Assembly (NCBI GenBank): GCA_003559215.1
Contig: PWMF01000217.1
Span: forward strand, 1-64,000
Reading direction: 5' to 3'
Length of the DNA stretch: 64,000 bases
Origin: Natrialbaceae archaeon
Lineage (GTDB): Archaea > Halobacteriota > Halobacteria > Halobacteriales > Natrialbaceae
Every line of letters starts with the position of its first letter. Positions within the stretch are counted from its first letter, which is position 1. The translations under genes and the position numbers were made by a program. The notes beneath the pieces are model-generated. The model had not been told where the DNA came from, did not search any database, and was given only the letters and a program-made list of their open reading frames with translations. Below, in pieces: positions 4,922-53,706 of this stretch.

Positions 4922-4960
4922 GCGGGAGGGCTTTTGGTACTCGAGGGGGTTAGATCGAGT

Positions 4961-5434
4961 GTGACGACGTCGGCCCCGACCCCCGACGAGGAGTGCTCGA
5001 TTCGGCCCGCGGAGCGTGCGGATCTGCTCGCAGTCGTTCGTATCGAACGCGAGTCGTTTCCCCAGCCTTGGCCCTACGACGCCTTCGAGCGCTTTCTGGA
5101 CGAACCCGGCTTTCTAGTCGCTGTCGACTCCCTCGGTGTGGTGGCGGGGTACGTCGTCGCCGACGTAAACCGCCAGTACGGCCGCAACCGCGGCCACGTC
5201 AAGGACATCGCCGTCCGTCCCGAGCGTCGCGGAAGCGGCGTCGGCTCGGCGTTGCTGTCGCGCATCGTCGCTGTCCTCCTCTCCCACGGTGCCGACTCGA
5301 TCAAACTCGAGGTCCGCGAGTCCAACGACGAAGCCAAACGGCTCTACCGGAGGTTCGGTTTCGAACCGCTCCGGCGGGTGCCGGGCTACTACGACGACGA
5401 GGACGCGATCGTGATGGTTCGAAAGCTCGAGTGA
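4961..5434 (+). CDS. rimI: Ribosomal-protein-alanine N-acetyltransferase (GNAT)
   Basis: 'ESFPQPWPYDAFERFL...VKDIAVRPERRGSGVGSALLSRI...LEVRESNDEAKRLYRRFGFEPLRRVPGYY' RimI motifs. GTG start at 4961 proposed; the ORF track begins at 4934. Confidence 0.9.
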   Translation: MTTSAPTPDEECSIRPAERADLLAVVRIERESFPQPWPYDAFERFLDEPGFLVAVDSLGVVAGYVVADVNRQYGRNRGHVKDIAVRPERRGSGVGSALLSRIVAVLLSHGADSIKLEVRESNDEAKRLYRRFGFEPLRRVPGYYDDEDAIVMVRKLE

Positions 5435-5485
5435 GCGGCAGGCGGTAGCGGGGAGGTTTTAGGACCGACGACCCTATCGTCGAGT

Positions 5486-5899
5486 ATGGGATACCGCTGT
5501 CCGGTCTGTGAGACCGAGGAGGTCGACGCGGTCCACCTCGCGAACCACCTCGCCGTTACCGCCTCGCTGGGACGGGCCGAGCACGAGGCCTGGCTCGAGG
5601 ACCACGCCCCCAACTGGGGCGACTGTACCCCCGAGGAACTCGGCGAGATCGTCAGCGAGCACGCCGAAACCGTCGAGACGCCCGAGTTCGACGACCACGA
5701 CCATGCCGATCACGGCCGCCCGGACGGGCTCGAGGGCGATCTCGCCCGCCAGAGTCGCCAGCCCGGTCGCGGCTCGATGACGACCGAGGCCGAACAGGTA
5801 CTTCAGGAGGCGCGGGAGCTGACCGAACGGATGACCGGTAACGCGGACGGCGGGACGGACGAGGAGACGGACCTCGAGAGCGAAAACGAAAACGCGTAA
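5486..5899 (+). CDS. DUF5810-like protein with N-terminal CxxC zinc motif
   Basis: 'MGYRCPVCETEEVDAVHLANHLAVTASLGRAEHEAWLEDHAP'; haloarchaeal family by recollection. Confidence 0.7.
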   Translation: MGYRCPVCETEEVDAVHLANHLAVTASLGRAEHEAWLEDHAPNWGDCTPEELGEIVSEHAETVETPEFDDHDHADHGRPDGLEGDLARQSRQPGRGSMTTEAEQVLQEARELTERMTGNADGGTDEETDLESENENA

Positions 5900-5924
5900 C
5901 TGCCGGACCCGCGAGGAACTCCGT

Positions 5925-6341
5925 ATGGAAACGACGGGAACGTTCACGTTCGAGTCGGTCGAGGAAGCGTGCGAGCGCTATGAGTCGGTCGGTCCGGCGG
6001 CACAGACGGTCGTCCGCGAAGTCGCGAAGGCGATGGCGTTCGACCGCGAGGAGTACGACGAACGCGTCGACGGCGGCGTCGTCGAGACCGCCCGCGACGC
6101 GCTGTTTGCGAGCCTGCTCGAGGTTCGGGTCGGTTCCCGCGAGGAGTACGAGGAGTGGCGCGAGCGCTACGATGGCGAGGTGACCGAGGTCGGACACGAG
6201 CGTGTCGACCGGGTCGTCTGGCACGCCGGACCGACCGGCGAGGCCGTCGCGGCGACGTTCCAGGACGAGGAGGCAGCCGCGGTCGCGACGCTTCGCCGTC
6301 AGGCGTTCGGCCGGCTCTACCGGGATCTCCTCGAGGACTGA
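5925..6341 (+). CDS. DUF5809-like conserved haloarchaeal protein
   Basis: 138 aa ORF directly downstream of and co-oriented with the DUF5810-like gene. Confidence 0.65.
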   Translation: METTGTFTFESVEEACERYESVGPAAQTVVREVAKAMAFDREEYDERVDGGVVETARDALFASLLEVRVGSREEYEEWRERYDGEVTEVGHERVDRVVWHAGPTGEAVAATFQDEEAAAVATLRRQAFGRLYRDLLED

Positions 6342-6400
6342 CGGCGCCCTCGAGTGCGGAGACGATATCTATTCCCACCTCGAGCACGCAGCCGTTCTCG

Positions 6401-6967
6401 ATGACCGACGTCGACGACTGGGAGCTCCTGGAGGAAGTGACCGAGTACGACACCCCCTGGTACGAGGGCGGCTACGATCGGCTCCGCCAGCCCGACGGCT
6501 CCGAGAAGCGATACTACTGGGCGGATCTCCCGCCCGCCGTCGTCGTCGTCGCCCGAGTCGACGCCGACGTTCTTGAGGACGACGGCGATGGCGACCGCCT
6601 GCTGTTCGTCGAGCAGTACCGCCCGACGATCCGCGAGACCCACCTCGAGCTCCCGGCAGGGATCGTTGAGGACGGCGAATCGTACACGACCGCGGCCGCC
6701 CGGGAACTCGAGGAGGAGACCGGGTTTCGGCCCTCGAGTACCGCGCTCTTACAGGAGTATGCGGTCGCGACGGGGGTGCTCCGCCACGATCGGGCGGTCG
6801 TCTACGCCGAGGGGCTCGAGCCCGGCGAACGCGAACTCGACAACAACGAGTTCCTCGAGGTGACGACGGTGCCGATCGGCGAGGCCCTGGAGCGCGCCCG
6901 CGAACAGCCCGCGAACGACTCGACGCTGACCGCGCTGTTGCTGGCGAGAGAGGAGGGGGTGCTCTGA
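6401..6967 (+). CDS. NUDIX hydrolase (ADP-ribose pyrophosphatase-like)
   Basis: Nudix box 'GIVEDGESYTTAAARELEEETGF'; ATG at 6401 (the track ORF extends further upstream). Confidence 0.9.
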   Translation: MTDVDDWELLEEVTEYDTPWYEGGYDRLRQPDGSEKRYYWADLPPAVVVVARVDADVLEDDGDGDRLLFVEQYRPTIRETHLELPAGIVEDGESYTTAAARELEEETGFRPSSTALLQEYAVATGVLRHDRAVVYAEGLEPGERELDNNEFLEVTTVPIGEALERAREQPANDSTLTALLLAREEGVL

Positions 6968-7109
6968 TACGGGCTGCTGTACCAATGTACCGAGGCGACC
7001 GCAGGACGGCTCGTGGTCTTCGGAGCTGACGGACGGGTGCTCGTATGACCGCGGATCCGGTTTTCGGGACCCGTGGCGCTTATTCGCCCGGCGTTCCAAC
7101 GCCAGGGCG

Positions 7110-7478
7110 ATGGACGGCGAAATCTCGACGGAGGAGGTAAAGCAGCTGTTAGACGAGGACGCCGACGTCCGCGTCGTCGACATCCGCGACGAACACAGCT
7201 TCGCGCACAGTCAGATTCCGGGCAGCGAGAACCTCCCGTTTCAGGAGCTCTCGGCCCGAATCGAGGATCTCGAGGACGCGGACCACGTCGTCACGGTCTG
7301 TCCGCACGGCAAGGCGAGCGTCCAGGCGGCCCAGCTCATCGGCTCCTACGAGGGAACCGCCGACGCCCGCGTCGAGAGCATGGCTGGCGGACTCGAGGAG
7401 TACGGGATGAAGTACGGGCTCGCTCGCGGCGAGGACGACGACGCCGCGGACGCCGAGCCGCCGGAGTCGCCGTTCTGA
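7110..7478 (+). CDS. Rhodanese-like domain protein
   Basis: 'VVDIRDEHSFAHSQIPGSENLPFQEL..VVTVCPHGKASVQAAQLIGS' with active-site Cys loop. Confidence 0.88.
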   Translation: MDGEISTEEVKQLLDEDADVRVVDIRDEHSFAHSQIPGSENLPFQELSARIEDLEDADHVVTVCPHGKASVQAAQLIGSYEGTADARVESMAGGLEEYGMKYGLARGEDDDAADAEPPESPF

Positions 7479-7619
7479 GTTCGGTTCACCATCTCGTGGA
7501 GGAGAGACTCGAGCCGACGGCTCGCCGTTTTCCTCGTCGAAAAGATCGATATCGATCGCTGAGAGACGCGGTGCGCGAGTCGTGGGTTCGGAAGTCGTCT
7601 CAGAGCATCGCGGGCGGAA

Positions 7620-7913
7620 TCAGGCGACGTTGAAGCCGCGGTCCCGAAGGAAATCCTCGATTCGGCCGGTGTGGTTGCCCTGGAGTTCGATCTGGCCGTC
7701 CTCGACGGTTCCCCCGCAGGCGAACTTCGATTTGAGATCCGACGAGAGACTGTCCAGATCGACGTCCTTCGGGTCGAATCCTTCGACGATCGTTACCTCT
7801 TTACCGTATCTGCGCTCGTCAATGCGGATGTTGAGTTGCTGTTGTCCCTTGGCTACGTCCTCGCAGACGCAAAGCTCTTCAGGCAGCCCGCACGTCGAGC
7901 AGACTTCCGACAT
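7620..7913 (-). CDS. Translation initiation factor aIF1/SUI1 (YciH family)
   Basis: 97 aa; '[47 protein letters not shown]...[20 protein letters not shown]'. Confidence 0.95.
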
Positions 7914-7980
7914 TACGGTCGAAAGTACGGAATGGGCATATTAAACACTATCGGGACCTGCGCCGCGTCGGGCGATCTTT

Positions 7981-10248
7981 TTAAAATCGATCGAGGATCG
8001 GAACTCGCTCTCGAGCCAGTTCGTCGACGGCGTTGATCGCCGCGTCGGCCGTCTCGCGATCGACGCCCCCGCCGTAGGTCGCTCGTTCGTAACAGCGCGC
8101 GACCCGCTCTGCGCGCGGATCTACCGGATCTTCCGCCGACAGCGCCGAGATGTACTGTCGGCTCGACTCGCCGCGGCGTCGCGGACGGTACTCGCGGGCC
8201 AGCAACCGCTCGAGCCGGCGGTACGCTCGCCGAGCGTCCTCGTCGGGATCGCTGCGTCGGCCGTGCCAGTAGAGACGGAACTCCCGACGGGCCCGTCGGG
8301 TCGCACCGGTTCGTCGAACCCCCGCCGCCAGCCCGACCAGTGCGAGAAGGCCGATCGCGAGCTGCTCGCGGGTGATCGTCACGACCTCACGCGGATCGAA
8401 CCCGTCGTCGCCTCCGTCGTCCGCGCTCGCGCCGTCGTCGCCGGTGTCGTCGTCGACGTTGGCCCGGTCGTCCGTGCCGTCGGGTTCCGTGTCATCGGGA
8501 CCATCGTCGTCCACCTGGCCGTCGTCGTCGGACTCGTTCGGCTCCTCGTCGTCGCTCTCTGCATCCTCGTCCTCGTTGTCGGAGATCGGGACGTCCTCGC
8601 TCTCCTCGATGTCGACGCCGTCGTGGCCGTCCTCGCGGGCCTCCTCGAGGCGGTCGTTGTGCTCGTCCTCGCGGGCGTCGCCCGGCGTCGGCTCGAAGGC
8701 GACCCAGCCGTGATCGGGGAAGTAGACCTCGACCCAGGCGTGGGCATCCAGTCCGCGGACGACGTACTCGCCGTCGTCGATCTCCTGTCCGCTGGTGTAG
8801 CCCGTCGCGTACCGGGCGGGGATCTCCTCGGCCCGCAGCATCTGAACCATCGACGTCGCGAAGTAGACGCAGTAGCCCTCGTCCATCTCGAAGAGGAACT
8901 CCTCGGCGACGTTACCCGAGGGCTGGTCGACCTCGAGGGAGTACCCCTTCGACGAGCGGAGGTACTGCTCGATCGCCACGGCGGCGTCGTAGTTCGTCTC
9001 CGCGTCCGCGGTCACCTCGGCAGTGTACTCCTCGAACTCGCTCGAGGTGTCCTCGGGAAGCTGGAGGTAGTCACTGTCGTCGATCACGCGATCGGGGTAG
9101 TCGGTCCCCGTCGCCCGGAGCTCGTCGGGGTCGGGGTCGACGATGGCGCTCTTGACCACGTACTCGTCGCCCTCGACGAGCGTGTCAGCCGGCTGTGGCT
9201 GACCGTGGGCAGAGACCTCGGCGTGTCTCACCGGTGGCCCCTCGAGTTCGACCTGCTGGGCCGCGCCTGGGAGCACGCCCAGTTCGGTCTGTGCGGTGAC
9301 GTGCTGGTTGACCGTCTCGGGGTCGCCCGGCGGTCCGTCGATCGAGCCGTCGTACTCCTCGAGGGGGCCCGACCGGATCCATTCGTCGCCCGCGAAGCGG
9401 TCGTAGACGCCGGTGCGCCAGTAGGATCGCTCCGCCGATTCGACCGTGAACCGGACCTCCGGCGAGAGGTCGACCTGGCCGCTGATCCCGGACTGCTCGC
9501 CGGCGGTGTCGATCGTCCCCTCGAGGGTCCCGTCCCCGCCGCCGGAGAACGTCGCGCCCCCGTCCTCGCCGGGAAGGATCGTAACCGACAGCGAGAGAAC
9601 GATGATCGCCGCGAACACCACCGCGAGCAGATCGGCTTGGGCGATCGAGCCGCCGCGGCGCTCGAGTTCGCCCAAGCCGATGGCGCCGATCGCGCCGACG
9701 GTTCCGACCAGGGTGACGGTCGTCCCGGCGTCGCCGGTCAGGACGAGGAACAACAGCGCGGCCCCCCCGGGAATGACGGCGAGCGCGTAGCGACCGCGCA
9801 CGGCGAGATACCACGAGAGGAAGGCGGGACCGGGCGCGAACCCGAGCGTCCAGAGTCCCGCCTCGACCATCCGAAGCAAGGGGAGCCCGGTCGCGAGCGC
9901 GGCGGTGTCGGTGAGAATCGTCTCGCTCGCGGCGAGGGCGACGCCGACGCCCGCTCCGGTCGCCTCGAGGTAGTAGGCGAAGCCGACGACGACGACGACG
10001 ATCGCCGCTGCCGTCGCCGTTCGGGGACGGATCGCCCGCGCGAGGACCGTCGCCGCAAGGATCATCGTCCCGACCAGCGCGAGCAGCGATCCGGTGCCGC
10101 CGACGACCTGGGTCACCTCGCGCAACACCCAGACGTACGAGCCGATCAGCGCCGCCACACAGGCGAGTGCGAGCAGTCGGAACGGGTCGGAACCGACCGA
10201 CCGCTCGAGGTCGACGTCGACGGTCCGTCCGCCCGAGTCGGTGCTCAC
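7981..10248 (-). CDS. Membrane transglutaminase-like protein (DUF3488/DUF4129 type)
   Basis: Multi-TM N-terminus; transglutaminase core 'GYCVYFATSMVQMLRAEEIPARYATGYTSG...VRGLDAHAWVEVYFPDHGWVAFEPTPG' (C-H-D triad); acidic linker; C-terminal TM. Confidence 0.92.
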   Translation of the reverse strand: MSTDSGGRTVDVDLERSVGSDPFRLLALACVAALIGSYVWVLREVTQVVGGTGSLLALVGTMILAATVLARAIRPRTATAAAIVVVVVGFAYYLEATGAGVGVALAASETILTDTAALATGLPLLRMVEAGLWTLGFAPGPAFLSWYLAVRGRYALAVIPGGAALLFLVLTGDAGTTVTLVGTVGAIGAIGLGELERRGGSIAQADLLAVVFAAIIVLSLSVTILPGEDGGATFSGGGDGTLEGTIDTAGEQSGISGQVDLSPEVRFTVESAERSYWRTGVYDRFAGDEWIRSGPLEEYDGSIDGPPGDPETVNQHVTAQTELGVLPGAAQQVELEGPPVRHAEVSAHGQPQPADTLVEGDEYVVKSAIVDPDPDELRATGTDYPDRVIDDSDYLQLPEDTSSEFEEYTAEVTADAETNYDAAVAIEQYLRSSKGYSLEVDQPSGNVAEEFLFEMDEGYCVYFATSMVQMLRAEEIPARYATGYTSGQEIDDGEYVVRGLDAHAWVEVYFPDHGWVAFEPTPGDAREDEHNDRLEEAREDGHDGVDIEESEDVPISDNEDEDAESDDEEPNESDDDGQVDDDGPDDTEPDGTDDRANVDDDTGDDGASADDGGDDGFDPREVVTITREQLAIGLLALVGLAAGVRRTGATRRARREFRLYWHGRRSDPDEDARRAYRRLERLLAREYRPRRRGESSRQYISALSAEDPVDPRAERVARCYERATYGGGVDRETADAAINAVDELARERVPILDRF

Positions 10249-11306
10249 GCGGCCACCCCCTGCGAGCCGTCCGTGTCCCCGGTCGACGATCCGCTCCCGT
10301 CGACGTGGCCGTCAGCCGTCGTTCGACCGTCGGCACCGCGGAGCCGATCGAACGGGATCTCGTGACCGTCGACGACGATCGTGGTCCCGCTCGCGTCCGA
10401 CTGGACCAGAACGTCGGCCTCGACCCGGTCCCGCTCGTCGAGTTCCTCGGCCTCGAGGACGGAAAGCGATCGGAGCAGCGATCGGTGGTGCTGACGGCCG
10501 GTACTCGGCGGGTGTCCCTCGGCTCCGGCGGTCAGCCCGACCCGAACCTCGCACTCGAGCAGGTAGGTCGCGACGCTGGCGACGGCCGCGGCCAGCTCGT
10601 TCTCCCGACCGGGAGTACACTCGGCGGCGACCGTGGCCGCGCCGACGGTCTCGTCGGCGGCGAACTCCTTGACAACGAGTTCGCCGTCCGGTCGTTTGGC
10701 CGCAGATTTCCAGTGGACCTCCCGGAGCGGATCGCCGCGCTGGTACTCCCGGAGGTGGTCGAACTCCTCGCGGTTGGCCTCCCGCGCGACGCCGGTGAGT
10801 ACCTCGAGGTCGCGACTCGTCCCGTTCTGTAGGTCGTAGACCCGCGGGTAGGCGAGCACTGTCGCCGTCTCCTCGTACTCGAACCGTCGCTCGCAGAGTC
10901 CGAAGATGTCCCTCACCGCGATCGACAGCGGTCCGACCCGGTGTTTGCCCCGCCTCTTGAGGATGAGATCGTACTCGAACTCGGTCTCGCCCTCGAGAGT
11001 CGATTCGATGCTCGGGTTCGGTGCGGCGAGCCCGTCGCCGACGTCGTCGTGGACGGTTGCGACGACGCTGGAGTCGGTTTCGATCGCGACGGAGACGGTT
11101 CGGGTCTCGTCGAGGAACCCCTCCGGAACCGGGGCTCGCCTGACCGTGGGTCTGTCGGCACTCACCGTTGTGAGGACGGCGGCGACGACGACGACCAGCA
11201 GCGGGATGACGATGGCGTCGAGCGAGCGCGGCCCGTACTGCCAGCTCATCACGGTTCCGAACGCGGCGACCGCGACGGCTCCCCAGCCGCGACTCGTGAG
11301 TCTCAT
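10245..11306 (-). CDS. DUF58 domain protein
   Basis: 353 aa; 'DLEVLTGVAREANREEFDHLREYQRGDPLREVHWKSAAKRPDGELVVKEF' is a DUF58 signature; start overlaps next gene by 4 bp. Confidence 0.92.
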   Translation of the reverse strand: MRLTSRGWGAVAVAAFGTVMSWQYGPRSLDAIVIPLLVVVVAAVLTTVSADRPTVRRAPVPEGFLDETRTVSVAIETDSSVVATVHDDVGDGLAAPNPSIESTLEGETEFEYDLILKRRGKHRVGPLSIAVRDIFGLCERRFEYEETATVLAYPRVYDLQNGTSRDLEVLTGVAREANREEFDHLREYQRGDPLREVHWKSAAKRPDGELVVKEFAADETVGAATVAAECTPGRENELAAAVASVATYLLECEVRVGLTAGAEGHPPSTGRQHHRSLLRSLSVLEAEELDERDRVEADVLVQSDASGTTIVVDGHEIPFDRLRGADGRTTADGHVDGSGSSTGDTDGSQGVAA

Positions 11307-47950: not shown

Positions 47951-48814
47951 CTACTCGATCTCGAACGACTCTATCGCCGTCTCGTCCGTGTCGGATCGCG
48001 TGAACGTCACCTCGTAGGGACCGCCGTCGCCATCGGTCGCGTATCCGCCAACTTCGAGGACTATCTCGTCGTCGTGACCGTCCTGGGGGGCGACCTGGTA
48101 GACGAGCGTCCCGTCGCTCTCCTGGACGGCACCAGCGCCTTCGACGACCTCGAGGTCGTCGTCCCGGAACGTCTCGGTGTAGTCGACACCACTCCCCTCT
48201 GGATCACTCAGGCCAATTTCGATCTCCTCGTGGGCCTTCCGGTTCTCTGCGAGTCTGAACCGGAACTGCTGGCGCTCCTCGCTCGGGCTCACGGATCTGG
48301 AGACGTCGTCGACGGCGACCGAGTCGAACCCGGTTCCGTCGGGCGGACCCGGGTCGGAGCGACCGGGACAGTCGCGTACGATCGCGAACGACCGCTCTAG
48401 TTCCTCGACCGAGATCCCGTCCCCGGTGGCGGAGTCGACCGTGACCTCGAGTTCCGTTTCTCCGGCGCCAGTTCCGGGTTCGCAGGTCACCGCGTACGTC
48501 GTCTCCTCGCCCGGCGAGAGCGTGTCGTCGAAGCCGCTCTCCTCCTCGAGGCCCGGTTCGTGGATCGTCACGTCGGCGTCGATCGACAGCTCCTCGTCGG
48601 CGTTGTTCGTCATCACGAGTACCGTCTCGGCGCCGTTCGGACCGCTGACGACGGTATCGACTGTTTCAACGCCGAGATACGCCTCCTCGTCGTCGGCCGT
48701 CCCGACCGAGACGCCACGATCGGCGGAGATCGAAATAAAACCGAACGTCGGTGCCGCGAGCAAGACGACACCGAGAACGACAAAGAGTATCGCCAGGGAT
48801 TTTGTCGTTCGCAT
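47951..48814 (-). CDS. Secreted beta-rich protein with DUF1102-like N-terminus
   Basis: 'MRTTKSLAILFVVLGVVLLAAPTFGFISISADRGVSVGTADDEEAYLGVETVD': signal peptide followed by the 'ADRGVSVxxADDExAYLG' motif typical of haloarchaeal DUF1102-type proteins. Confidence 0.75.
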   Translation of the reverse strand: MRTTKSLAILFVVLGVVLLAAPTFGFISISADRGVSVGTADDEEAYLGVETVDTVVSGPNGAETVLVMTNNADEELSIDADVTIHEPGLEEESGFDDTLSPGEETTYAVTCEPGTGAGETELEVTVDSATGDGISVEELERSFAIVRDCPGRSDPGPPDGTGFDSVAVDDVSRSVSPSEERQQFRFRLAENRKAHEEIEIGLSDPEGSGVDYTETFRDDDLEVVEGAGAVQESDGTLVYQVAPQDGHDDEIVLEVGGYATDGDGGPYEVTFTRSDTDETAIESFEIE

Positions 48815-48815
48815 A

Positions 48816-49382
48816 CTATGGTGGCCGTTCCATCTCTCCCAGCCGCATCCGTCGGCTCTGAACGACGTGGGCGATCGACGACGCCGCGAACAGCCCGACC
48901 ACGAGAGTCGTCCAACCGAGCGCCGGAATCGTCTCGGTCGGAACGACCTCGAGCCACAGCCCGACCATCACGACCGACGAGATTACGGAGAGTCCGAGGT
49001 AGTAGACCCCCCACGGAACGCTGTCGCCGGGAACGATGTCGAGGTAGACATCGAGCTCGGACGCCTCCTCGGTGAGTTCGATCGTCCGATCGTCGAAGAC
49101 GACCATTCCGGCCTGCTCGAGGGTCGGCAGGTGGCTCTGCTGAAGGGAGGTGTAGACGCGCTTTCGCTCCGTGGCGGTCAACTCCGGGATCTCCTTCTCG
49201 AGCTCCCAGGCGGCGACGTGCTCGGCGAGGTCGCCGAGTTCGACCGGCCCGTCCTCGCGCTTGCAGTAGTGAATCGCGTACCGCCGCCGCTGGTTGGAGA
49301 GCAGGCCGAATATCTCGCCGCGGTCGGGCGTCGACTCGTCGATATCCGTCTGCGTCTCGCCGGCGGCCCTGTTCGTCGCCAT
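48816..49382 (-). CDS. Winged-helix regulator (DUF7344-like) with two C-terminal TM segments
   Basis: 'RGEIFGLLSNQRRRYAIHYCKREDGPVELGDLAEHVAAWELEKEIPELTATERKRVYTSLQQSHLPTLEQAGMVVFDDRT' then two TM helices. ATG at 49382. Confidence 0.85.
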   Translation of the reverse strand: MATNRAAGETQTDIDESTPDRGEIFGLLSNQRRRYAIHYCKREDGPVELGDLAEHVAAWELEKEIPELTATERKRVYTSLQQSHLPTLEQAGMVVFDDRTIELTEEASELDVYLDIVPGDSVPWGVYYLGLSVISSVVMVGLWLEVVPTETIPALGWTTLVVGLFAASSIAHVVQSRRMRLGEMERPP

Positions 49383-49644
49383 TAGAACGTCAGTACAGCG
49401 CACAGTACCGACCGCCGATAAATAAGCCTACTGGCCAACGCGTTCGTTTCACCGTTCGTTTCGGAACTGAAACGGTACGAAGTCGGACGAGAACCGGTTC
49501 TGGGGCGGCCTGAATCTGTAATGGCCTACTAAGAAGACTTTCAGCATCATAAATACAAAGTACATGGGATGCCATAGATCGAGATAGGAACCGCCCGCGA
49601 CCACGCTCGAGATACCGGTCGCCGGCCGGACCAGAGAATCTATC

Positions 49645-50166
49645 ATGAAACTCAACCGACGAAACACGCTCATCGGACTCGGAACGATCGTTGCCGGCGG
49701 CGGTGCGGCGCTAGGTACGGGTGCGTTCAGTAGCGTCGAAGCGGCCAGATCGGTCGACGTCAGTACCGAGGGTGACGGCAGTGCGCTCCTCGAGCTAGAA
49801 ATCGTCAACGAGACGCTGGCAGGCGAGGGGGGAGAGGATAGTGATCTCATCGAGTTCGACGTCGACGATCTCAATCAAGATGCTCTCACGAGGTTCGAGG
49901 ACGCGTTCGAAATCGGATACGGCGGCGACGAGGATCACAGCTACTCACTCGAGATACGTGTCGACAATGAAAACGGGGATAGCGGGACGAACCTTTTCGG
50001 TGGAGACGGAGAGCCGATGTATTTCGAGGGAAGTGATCAGCTGGGTGCGGGGGAAGGGAACGACGAAGTAACACTCGACGTCGTCTTCGATCTTCAGGGA
50101 GAGAACGACGAAGACGATATTCCCGATGAGATTACTATCGTCGCTGAACGAACTACCGGCAGTTGA
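49645..50166 (+). CDS. Secreted DUF1102/TasA-like protein with SipW-cognate-type signal peptide
   Basis: 'MKLNRRNTLIGLGTIVAGGGAALGTGAFSSVEAARSVDVSTEGDGSALLELEIVNE'; the 'GxGAFSSVEAxRxVxV' junction resembles TasA/camelysin-type precursors. Confidence 0.8.
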   Translation: MKLNRRNTLIGLGTIVAGGGAALGTGAFSSVEAARSVDVSTEGDGSALLELEIVNETLAGEGGEDSDLIEFDVDDLNQDALTRFEDAFEIGYGGDEDHSYSLEIRVDNENGDSGTNLFGGDGEPMYFEGSDQLGAGEGNDEVTLDVVFDLQGENDEDDIPDEITIVAERTTGS

Positions 50167-50280
50167 TCGGTGGCCGGTTTCGAATATCTGTCGAGGTGTG
50201 GACGATGCTCTTTCTACCGATGTGTCACCTCGAATGGTCCCTTAGTACACGACTTCGCTCGAATCCCGACCGGCGGACAC

Positions 50281-50310
50281 ATTTATAAGCTAGATAGTAT
50301 TTATCAAAAA
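50281..50310 (+). promoter_or_regulatory. TATA-box promoter upstream of the signal peptidase gene
   Basis: 'atttataagctagatagtatttatcaaaaacg', AT-rich with 'TTTATAAG', about 60 nt upstream of the ATG. Confidence 0.5.
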
Positions 50311-50342
50311 CGAACAACTCTACTGTGGCCCATGGAGGGTAA

Positions 50343-51506
50343 ATGAGAACACGGACGCTCGTCGTTCGAGGCGTGGCCGGGCTCGTCGTCCTCGCCGTTG
50401 CACTGCTCGTCGTCGGGCAGGTGTTCGGCCAGCCGATCCTGCTGAGCTACGTCGCGACAGGGAGCATGGAGCCGACGATGGACGCCGGCGACGGGTTCGT
50501 CGCCGTACCGAACGCCGTCGCCGGCTCGCCCAGCGAGGGCGACGTCGTCGTCTTCGACGCCCAGGAGCTCCACGGCGGCGAACTGACGACCCACCGGATC
50601 GTCGAGGTAACGCCGGATGGGTACGTGACGGCGGGCGACGCGAACCCCTTCACCGACCAGGGTGGCGACGAGCCGCCGGTAACCGACGAACAGATCGTCG
50701 CCGTCGCCTGGCAGCCGGGCGGCGAGGTCGTGACGATTCCCCACCTCGGAACTGCTGTAATGGGCGTCCAGGGTGCACTCGAGTCGGCGTACGGAACGGC
50801 CGCGTCGGTCCTCGGGGTCTCGACGGCGGACAGCCACGGCGTGGGTTCGGTGTTGGTCGGACTCGGCGTGGCGCTGTTCGGCGTGGGAATCCTCCTCGAT
50901 CACGCGGGCGTTACACGACGTGAAACGGCGCGATCGACCTCTCGAGAGAACGTCTACGCGTTCTGGGGGACCGTCGCGCTCGTGGTGTTCGTGATCGTCG
51001 CGCTGGCGACCGCGGCGATGGTGGTTCCCGCCGGCACCTACGAGTACGAGGTCGCCGTCACGGAGTCGCCGACCGACGATCCCCAGATACTGGCTCCGGG
51101 CGAGACGAGTGAACTGACTCGAGCGGTAGAGAACGCGGGCTACGCCCCTGTGGTTGTCGTCCACGAGACCGGTAGCGGACTCGAGGCCGAGCCTGAATCG
51201 CAGACGCTCGGTCCCCGCTCCGAGGACGCGACGACGCTGTCGGTATCGGCCCCCCAGGAGACCGGCGAGTACACCAGCCACGTCGGGGAGTACCGCTATC
51301 TGGCCGTTCTCCCCCCTTCGCTACTCGTCTGGCTACACGGGATCCACCCGCTCGCCGCGATCGCCGCCGTCGATCTCGTCCTCGTCGGCGTCGTCGTCGG
51401 GGCCGTCGCGCTCCTGTTCGGGCGAGGTGACTTCCGGATCCGAAGTCCGGGCGATCACGTTGCACTCTCGACTCGCCTCCGGCGTCGACTCCGTCGGTGG
51501 CGGTAG
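50343..51506 (+). CDS. Archaeal signal peptidase I (SipW/ER-type Ser-His) with extended multi-TM C-terminus
   Basis: 'LLSYVATGSMEPTMDAGDGFVAVPNAVAGSPSEGDVVVFDAQ...LTTHRIVEVTPDGYVTAGDAN' boxes; C-terminal extension with three or more TMs. Confidence 0.93.
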   Translation: MRTRTLVVRGVAGLVVLAVALLVVGQVFGQPILLSYVATGSMEPTMDAGDGFVAVPNAVAGSPSEGDVVVFDAQELHGGELTTHRIVEVTPDGYVTAGDANPFTDQGGDEPPVTDEQIVAVAWQPGGEVVTIPHLGTAVMGVQGALESAYGTAASVLGVSTADSHGVGSVLVGLGVALFGVGILLDHAGVTRRETARSTSRENVYAFWGTVALVVFVIVALATAAMVVPAGTYEYEVAVTESPTDDPQILAPGETSELTRAVENAGYAPVVVVHETGSGLEAEPESQTLGPRSEDATTLSVSAPQETGEYTSHVGEYRYLAVLPPSLLVWLHGIHPLAAIAAVDLVLVGVVVGAVALLFGRGDFRIRSPGDHVALSTRLRRRLRRWR

Positions 51507-51637
51507 GCATCCGTGGGCCACTACGGTTATGACGATCGGGATTCTTTCCGCACATATGAACAGTTCTCCCGAACGACCTGTTCGCTCGAGGGATACCCTG
51601 GGTCGAGCACGGGAGAGTCGGACGATGGGAGGGGACA

Positions 51638-52762
51638 GTGATCGATAACCCGCGGCTGGATCTGGTGATCGCGGACCGCGGTCGAATCCTCGCGATCACC
51701 CTCGCGCTCGTGGGGGTGTTCGCACTCGTTGGCGCCGGCTGGGTCGCGGCGACGCCGGGGACGTCAACGACGACTGAGGAGGTCGACCGGGAGACCGTCG
51801 CGACCGAGGTGACGACGAGCGCGACGGTCGTCGAGGACGGTCCCTGGGAGGCCGGTACCGAACTCGAGGACAATCCAGTCTACACCCTCTCTGAGACACC
51901 AGAGCTGACCCTCACCGCGGAGACGACGGTTCCGAGCGACGACGCCGATGTCATCCACGAGGTACGTGTCCGCCACGAGGCCGAACACGAGGACGCGGTC
52001 TTCTGGGAGGAGACGGTCCGGGAAGAGCGGACCGCTGCGACTATCGAGGGCGACGTCGCACGCTCGGAGACGACGATCGACGTCAACTCGCTTGCAGCCG
52101 AACGCGCCGACGTCGAGGCGGAGTTCGACGTCGGAGCCGTCCGAACGCTACTCGAGGTCGTCGCTATCTACGAGACCGGAACCCACGCCGACGAGCAGAC
52201 GCTGTCGAGTACGCTCGAGCTGACCGAAAACGCCTATTGGCTCGAGGAAGCGGAGCTAGAGGCGTCGACCGACCACAGCGAGACGGCGCAGATCGAGGTC
52301 CAAGAATCGCCGAACGCGGTGGCCGTCGCCGGACTGGCGGCGGTCGGACTGCTCGCACTCGTCGGGGCTGCAGCCGTCCACACGCGGCGCCCGGTCGACG
52401 CCGAGTCGGCCCGCCGGTCCGTACACGAACGCCGCTACGCGGAGTGGATCTCGGAGGGATCGATCCCCATGTGGGTTGGCGACTACCACGTCGAACTCGA
52501 TAGCCTCGAGGACGTCGTCGACGTGGCCATCGATACGAGCGCACGCGTCGTCCACGATCGACAACGGGGACTGTTCGCCGTCGTCAACGACAACGTCGTC
52601 TACTACTACTCCGAGCGTGGTCAGTGGGAGAAGACCGCCTGGCCGGAACTCGAGCTCGGGAACTCGACTACAGAAGCGACCGAGGAGACGGTGATCCCCA
52701 CAGAGGAGTCGTTCGGCGAACTCCCGGACCCGGACGACGACGATGCCTGGGAACGGATCTGA
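51638..52762 (+). CDS. DUF5305-like protein: N-terminal TM, large extracytosolic beta domain, second TM, cytosolic tail
   Basis: 'LDLVIADRGRILAITLALVGVFALVGAGWVAATP...VAVAGLAAVGLLALVGAAAVHTRR...YAEWISEGSIP' topology typical of DUF5305. Confidence 0.85.
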   Translation: MIDNPRLDLVIADRGRILAITLALVGVFALVGAGWVAATPGTSTTTEEVDRETVATEVTTSATVVEDGPWEAGTELEDNPVYTLSETPELTLTAETTVPSDDADVIHEVRVRHEAEHEDAVFWEETVREERTAATIEGDVARSETTIDVNSLAAERADVEAEFDVGAVRTLLEVVAIYETGTHADEQTLSSTLELTENAYWLEEAELEASTDHSETAQIEVQESPNAVAVAGLAAVGLLALVGAAAVHTRRPVDAESARRSVHERRYAEWISEGSIPMWVGDYHVELDSLEDVVDVAIDTSARVVHDRQRGLFAVVNDNVVYYYSERGQWEKTAWPELELGNSTTEATEETVIPTEESFGELPDPDDDDAWERI

Positions 52763-52945: not shown

Positions 52946-52965
52946 GGGTGCTTTCGAATCGTAAT

Positions 52966-53259
52966 ATGACCGCGACTTACGGCGAGGACCTCGAGGATCT
53001 GCCACCGAGCGCGAAACTCGTTTTCAAGGTTCTCGAGTACGACGGTCCGCTCACGCAAAAACAGATCGTCGAGGAGTCGATGCTCTCGGCACGAACCGTC
53101 CGCTACGCCCTCGAGCGTCTCGAGGAGATCGGCATCGTCGACGAGGATATCTACTTCGCAGACGCCAGACAGAGCCTCTACCGTCTCGAAGAACCCGTCG
53201 CGGCCGACGGCAGCGGCGTCGAGGAATCTCCGAAGAAAGACGCCTGCTGCGCAGAGTAG
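52966..53259 (+). CDS. Winged-HTH transcriptional regulator (MarR/ArsR-like) with C-terminal CC motif
   Basis: 'LPPSAKLVFKVLEYDGPLTQKQIVEESMLSARTVRYALERLEEIGIVDEDIYFADARQSLYRL...DACCAE'. Confidence 0.9.
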   Translation: MTATYGEDLEDLPPSAKLVFKVLEYDGPLTQKQIVEESMLSARTVRYALERLEEIGIVDEDIYFADARQSLYRLEEPVAADGSGVEESPKKDACCAE

Positions 53260-53304
53260 CCCGGAAACGGCAGGATTATTTTTCAGTGGTGATCCCCTCC
53301 GTGT

Positions 53305-53706
53305 ATGGATAAGGAGCGATTGCCGCGGTGGGGGTGGCTGCTGGCCGGACTGTTCGTCATGTCGATCCTCGCACAGATACTCAATCAGCTCGTGCTGTTT
53401 CCGGCCGGACTACCGGAGGCATACCAGTCGATCACGGTCATTACACTCATGTCTCCGGTGTTGATCTACGTCGGCGTCTGGTACGACGAGGAGCGCCAGC
53501 ACTACTGGGAGCGATCACAGGAGCGGATCGTCGGCGACCTCGCGTTCGTCGTCGCCGGCGCGGCGCTGGGTTCGGCGATCGTACTGGTCGCAATCGTCGA
53601 TCTCGGGCTGCCCCAGATCGTCCAGGACATCGTCGCGATGGCTGTCGGCTTCATGCTCTCGTGGGGGCTGTTCTGGTGGCGGAACCCGGACGTCTACCTC
53701 GGGTAG
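53305..53706 (+). CDS. Membrane protein of unknown function
   Basis: 133 aa with several hydrophobic segments. Confidence 0.75.
   Translation: MDKERLPRWGWLLAGLFVMSILAQILNQLVLFPAGLPEAYQSITVITLMSPVLIYVGVWYDEERQHYWERSQERIVGDLAFVVAGAALGSAIVLVAIVDLGLPQIVQDIVAMAVGFMLSWGLFWWRNPDVYLG

Follow-up and report, generated by a model that had tools for sequence, protein, structure and literature searches.

Which kind of surface structure, if any, is encoded by the five genes at positions 47951-52762 of this Natronococcus contig? The window, i.e., the whole 64,000-nucleotide stretch that we analysed, had been read in a first-pass annotation as carrying here a self-contained fibre module with subunits akin to TasA and camelysin and a SipW-like signal peptidase. 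All five open reading frames (ORFs) of that annotation were present as described and with the right coordinates (Table 1), and its structural readings were borne out as well: a winged-helix regulator with membrane segments, a signal peptidase with an extended C-terminus, and a DUF5305 protein laid out as transmembrane segment, exterior domain, transmembrane segment and tail. We consider, with a probability of roughly 85%, that these genes form a Tat-fimbria locus, known here from its genes alone. Tat-fimbriae (tafi) are appendages that depend on twin-arginine translocation (Tat) and have TafA as their core protein (Galeva et al. 2025, iScience 28:111793, as cited in PMC12687288). The Natronococcus locus is thus a reduced form of a known system and not a new system; what is new here is the loss of TafF in a Natronococcus subclade, along with the failure to find a full-length TafA in the assembly, the non-Tat signal of TafC in Natrialbaceae, and a motif shared by the pilins.

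Table 1. Genes and sequence features of the candidate Tat-fimbria locus (positions in the window)
Feature	Position	Strand	Description and basis
TafC-like secreted protein	47951..48814	-	287 aa, carries ADRGVSVGTADDEEAYLG; NCBIfam TafC match
DUF7344 winged-helix protein with 2 membrane segments	48816..49382	-	188 aa; Pfam DUF7344
TafE-like pilin	49645..50166	+	173 aa; NCBIfam TafE match
Peptidase S26, ER/SipW-type, extended C-terminus	50343..51506	+	387 aa; Pfam/NCBIfam
DUF5305 membrane protein	51638..52762	+	374 aa; Pfam DUF5305
TafC copy of the shared motif, F-I-S-I-S-A-D-R, putative site of cleavage and donor strand	48716..48739	-	Alignment of TafC-like proteins
Twin arginine R5 R6 in pilin signal MKLNRRNTLIGLG	49657..49662	+	Alignment of TafE homologues
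Pilin motif F28-S-S-V-E-A-A-R35, directly after G26 A27	49726..49749	+	Alignment
Catalytic Ser41 (TGSM; 50463-50465) and His84 (TTHR; 50592-50594)	50463..50594	+	Peptidase alignment
Inverted repeat CGTTTCA-N16-TGAAACG, candidate operator	49445..49474		Divergent intergenic region

The first evidence comes from the two secreted proteins. Against the Taf family models of NCBIfam (release 20; TafA, TafC, TafE and TafF are NF052520-NF052523), the pilin matched TafE over residues 3-166 with an E-value of 3.7e-29 (101.7 bits), and the first protein of the locus matched TafC over residues 4-150, its N-terminal half, with an E-value of 5.6e-15 (55 bits). A search of the PDB with the pilin returned one chain, 9P0A ('Pilin'), the match lying in the signal region; in the fold library this entry bears the title 'Structure of Natrinema sp. 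J7-2 Tafi pilus' and the release date 2025-07-23. A gene of Natrinema gari (L109) encodes a product identical to this chain (100% over 215 aa), and in that genome the order is RLI-EMC6-TafC-DUF7344 and then pilin-TafF-S26-DUF5305-HTH-TM-NAD synthase (HTH, helix-turn-helix protein; TM, transmembrane protein). The window has the same outer neighbours, RLI and EMC6 flanking the locus at one end and the HTH protein, the TM protein and NAD synthase at the opposite end; its pilin gene therefore stands in the place that the gene of a proven Tafi pilin has in N. gari. In addition, the first 35 residues of the two pilins are nearly identical. The Natrinema locus differs in that it keeps TafF and, in N. 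gari, also has an ORF of about 900 aa between pilin and regulator. Such ORFs (870-1060 aa), with an N-terminus resembling that of archaeal type IV pilins (SPLIGIVLLFA), occupy this position in many Natrialbaceae (L067:9978-12686; L068-L072, L081, L082) and are not found in the window.

The same families sit together across Halobacteria, and for this reason the five-gene arrangement is not a product of chance. We label as Haloarcula-type those genomes whose loci hold TafA, TafC, TafE and TafF above the curated cut-offs (L046 was checked); these loci also hold DUF7344, S26 and DUF5305. What the window has in common with them is the combination of a TafE-like twin-arginine pilin, a TafC-like protein, DUF7344, S26 and DUF5305, whereas it departs from them in lacking TafA and TafF, in its scores below the cut-offs, and in a shorter TafC that can be recognised in its N-terminal half only and has a non-Tat signal. 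Of 146 genomes of Halobacteria, 111 had both DUF5305 and TafE, 7 had DUF5305 but not TafE, 1 had TafE but not DUF5305, and 27 had neither. Furthermore, we collected 60 loci by similarity to the window peptidase, each with at least 7 kb of flank on either side; a pilin-like gene was present in 59 of them, DUF5305 in 57 (for the most part no further than 300 bp downstream of the peptidase), DUF7344 in 56 and all three in 54, a count that describes this peptidase clade and not S26 enzymes at large, because the loci were picked by that similarity.

Several observations weigh against the assignment to tafi. Both Taf matches fall under the curated equivalog cut-offs of NCBIfam, which stand at 155 bits for TafE and 410 for TafC. 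The window pilin is 31% identical overall to the 9P0A pilin, and the fold match between its model and 9P0A is not significant (E-value 0.24, TM score 0.35). Nor does the pilin tree, which is weakly resolved, place the two as sisters: the window protein falls into a 12-row clade with Haloarcula-type TafE (SH-aLRT 97), and the 9P0A pilin sits elsewhere on a long branch. In most Natrialbaceae, TafF separates the pilin gene from the peptidase gene; it is absent from this locus, its best matches elsewhere in the genome (E-values 1.5e-5 and 6.5e-4) being unconvincing, and the genome assembly yielded no TafA of full length. Given that this assembly is 96.7% complete, with 6.25% contamination and 222 contigs, both absences are likely but not certain. 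TafF is also missing from four other Natronococcus genomes; the peptidase tree indicates one loss in a clade of five (SH-aLRT 99) and a separate one in L056. As for TafA, N. gari likewise gave no match above cut-off, which means that the Natrialbaceae form is not defined by this protein.

It might be, then, that the fibre is no longer built, and that the TafE-like protein has become, after the loss of TafF, a peptidase-matured protein that is secreted or bound to the S-layer. The single loss of TafF in the subclade, the failure to find TafA and the fast divergence of the pilin would fit such a course; nevertheless, at least five genomes of the subclade retain the other parts, and in these the catalytic residues and the motif are unimpaired, and Natrinema, with its solved Tafi pilus, is likewise without TafA above cut-off. 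We regard this alternative as quite unlikely, and continue with the reading of the locus as a Tat-fimbria.

The TafE-like protein is probably the major and only pilin of the locus. Its signal (NRRNTLIGLG) contains a twin arginine (R5 and R6) that does not vary among 33 TafE homologues and was overlooked in the first pass; it suggests export by Tat. Invariant in the 33 homologues, too, are G26, A27, F28, V31, A33 and R35. The AlphaFold2 (AF2) model is all-beta (pLDDT 71.6, pTM 0.63), and its best fold matches were the bundling pilin AbpA (PDB 7UEG), self-complemented FimA and 9P0A, none of them significant; AbpA and FimA, at the top, reached E-values of 0.04-0.1 and TM scores of 0.30-0.36. A pilin monomer that lacks its donor strand makes a weak query for such a comparison.

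The invariant residues belong to a motif that the pilins share, GA-F-x2-[VI]-x-A-x-R. In its core form F..h.A.R, it was found in 76 of 86 TafE, 54 of 79 second-type pilins and 12 of 14 TafA matches, these being searched over the first 150 aa, as some ORFs may be given a start that is too early, and within the first 60 aa of 37 among 7388 other ORFs. A scan of the genome with the motif as a DNA pattern gave three matches that proved to be cargo of a second locus (see below), and the remaining two, on contigs C128 and C148, were dismissed as chance, with no pilin-like ORF nearby; the window pilin gene itself was missed because its arginine codon is AGA. The 9P0A chain is 27 residues shorter in the fold library (188) than as encoded (215), and 27 is also the number of residues before F28. 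From this agreement and the invariance of the motif we infer that the pilin is cleaved between GA and F and that the residues which follow, F-x2-[VI]-x-A-x-R, serve as the donor strand, although the cut may instead fall at V-x-A, after A33.

This gave rise to a picture of how such a fimbria could be assembled. The pilin would fold in the cytoplasm and leave by Tat; a Ser-His S26 peptidase would then cut it between GA and F, setting the N-terminal strand F-x2-[VI]-x-A-x-R free to enter the groove of a neighbouring beta-sandwich subunit. Through such insertion the subunits would link up to form a thin fibre, with no need for an ATPase or an usher. The TafC-like protein, which has this strand motif as well yet bears a signal of the non-Tat kind, would be added as a minor or tip subunit. 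The fibre, as it grows, would be held or organised by DUF5305 from within the membrane, and expression would be under the control of the DUF7344 protein. We infer the cleavage by this peptidase, the polymerisation and the roles of TafC, DUF5305 and DUF7344. Taken as a whole, the scheme of a minimal Tat-fimbria, with a single Tat-exported pilin, no TafA or TafF, a peptidase cut that frees the donor strand as the assembly switch, and DUF5305 as the platform, is a tentative one that we think less likely than not to hold.

The peptidase at the centre of this scheme matched Pfam Peptidase_S26 (E-value 1e-4), sigpep_I_arch (2.7e-13) and SipW (2e-9). S41 (TGSM), H84 (TTHR) and D99 are invariant in 15 sequences (alignment A1), and by these residues the enzyme is of the Ser-His type, as in peptidases of the endoplasmic reticulum (ER) and in SipW. 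Transmembrane segments were placed at about residues 6-24, 167-185, 210-228 and 340-358, and the stretch that separates the third from the fourth presumably forms an exterior domain. The enzyme shares 40% identity with its counterpart in the TafA/C/E/F locus L046. A common origin of its C-terminal domain with DUF5305 was considered and dropped (hhalign probability 2.7%). The DUF5305 protein itself (Pfam E-value 1.5e-43), with its cytoplasmic tail, is proposed to be an assembly or anchoring partner.

Does this peptidase really serve the fimbria? It could be a general second, Sec11-like signal peptidase that merely adjoins the fimbrial genes, the pilins being matured by the housekeeping Sec11, as its catalytic domain is that of a normal archaeal ER-type S26 enzyme and its link to the cargo is one of co-location. 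On the other side stand the conserved extra membrane and exterior region, the linkage to pilin, DUF7344 and DUF5305 in the 54 of 60 loci mentioned above, and the fact that a second such peptidase accompanies a second pilin set in the same genome. This alternative strikes us as unlikely, and the case that the locus has a signal peptidase dedicated to its fimbria is strong; probably it does.

The likeness to Bacillus must be judged separately. With the TasA/TapA-SipW system, the locus shares an ER-type signal peptidase beside secreted beta-rich subunits and, possibly, strand exchange; it differs in the lack of a TasA sequence match, in a Tat rather than a Sec signal, and in a SipW score of 37.3 bits, far under the equivalog cut-off of 190. 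That a true TasA/TapA-SipW system was acquired from Bacillota would agree with the analogous layout and with the SipW match just given. Yet besides that low score and the Tat-type signal, Pfam, NCBIfam and the PDB gave no TasA or camelysin sequence match for the cargo, TasA was not among the top 50 fold matches, and the relatives we found were all haloarchaeal apart from one contig labelled Mollicutes; an origin in Bacillota is most improbable. The kinship of the subunits with TasA and camelysin, as claimed in the first-pass annotation, is accordingly not shown, there being no sequence match and the best fold matches (AbpA, FimA, 9P0A) lying below significance. The DUF1102 label that it gave to both secreted proteins of the window has to be replaced by TafE-like and TafC-like, neither of them matching Pfam PF06510 even at E<=1. 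What is supported of the fibre module is a self-contained haloarchaeal unit with its own ER/SipW-type peptidase, as the synteny with the 9P0A locus and the co-occurrence counts indicate, but the type of fibre, tafi, was already known.

For the TafC-like protein, which would have two domains, a place as a minor or tip component is more likely than one as the pilin. Its AF2 model (pLDDT 75, pTM 0.42) predicts two beta-sandwich domains and looks like Ig-like proteins of two domains, among them chaperones of the PapD type and adhesins of staphylococci. The predicted fold would suit a tip adhesin or a chaperone, without a choice between them. With the TafC profile, the PDB gave just chance matches to proteins resembling green fluorescent protein and a sub-threshold N-terminal match to 9P0A. 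C111 and C149 are invariant among the aligned relatives, and G25, F26, A31 and R33 are invariant in 17 TafC-like proteins with the same spacing as in the pilin motif. Reading the N-termini, we found a twin arginine in Haloarcula-type TafC (KKWTRRGALAF), whereas Natrialbaceae TafC mostly begins with signals like MRTTKSLAILFVV, without it. It thus appears, as far as these signals tell, that TafC changed its export route in Natrialbaceae and that the pilin kept Tat. The C-termini of TafC-like proteins are highly variable (L100, L108, L109) and include glycine/aspartate-rich repeats resembling a beta-solenoid; a role as adhesin module is possible.

The TafC-like and DUF7344 genes run leftward with 1 base between them, and the other three genes run rightward. 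The DUF7344 protein (domain E-value 2e-28; hydrophobic segments 129-147 and 159-177 in the numbering of its 195-aa form) is a probable regulator of the locus. In the intergenic region (49383-49644), the inverted repeat CGTTTCA-N16-TGAAACG lies inside a block that is kept in the closest Natronococcus sequences and not in L045 or more distant loci, and AATACAAAG at 49552-49560 is identical in all 7 of the 7 aligned genomes. Beyond the locus, genes for a small HTH protein and a small membrane protein (52948-53706 in the window) come next in nearly every one of the Natrialbaceae that we examined; the two are probably independent neighbours, though strikingly conserved as a pair.

A second, paralogous module was observed in the same genome (L003, G000:C1:24000-40826, at 4956-11127), with DUF7344, a short TafC-like protein, S26, DUF5305 and three tandem twin-arginine DUF1102/TafE-like pilins. 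DUF1102 matches occurred only in this cargo, two above the Pfam cut-off and one below. Contamination is an unlikely source of the module, because a similar module occurs in Natronococcus sp. A-GB1 (L166). The Mollicutes-labelled contig (L150), from a metagenome-assembled genome, carries a haloarchaeal-looking tafi-type locus and is probably misbinned.

The locus suggests a possible core for the Tat-fimbria module of haloarchaea, made up of the pilin, the Ser-His signal peptidase, DUF5305 and the DUF7344 regulator, TafA and TafF being dispensable in some lineages. The proposed cut between GA and F, followed by F-x2-[VI]-x-A-x-R, offers a concrete and testable site where signal removal and strand-exchange assembly may coincide, and the TafF-less Natronococcus form provides a natural test of the function of TafF.

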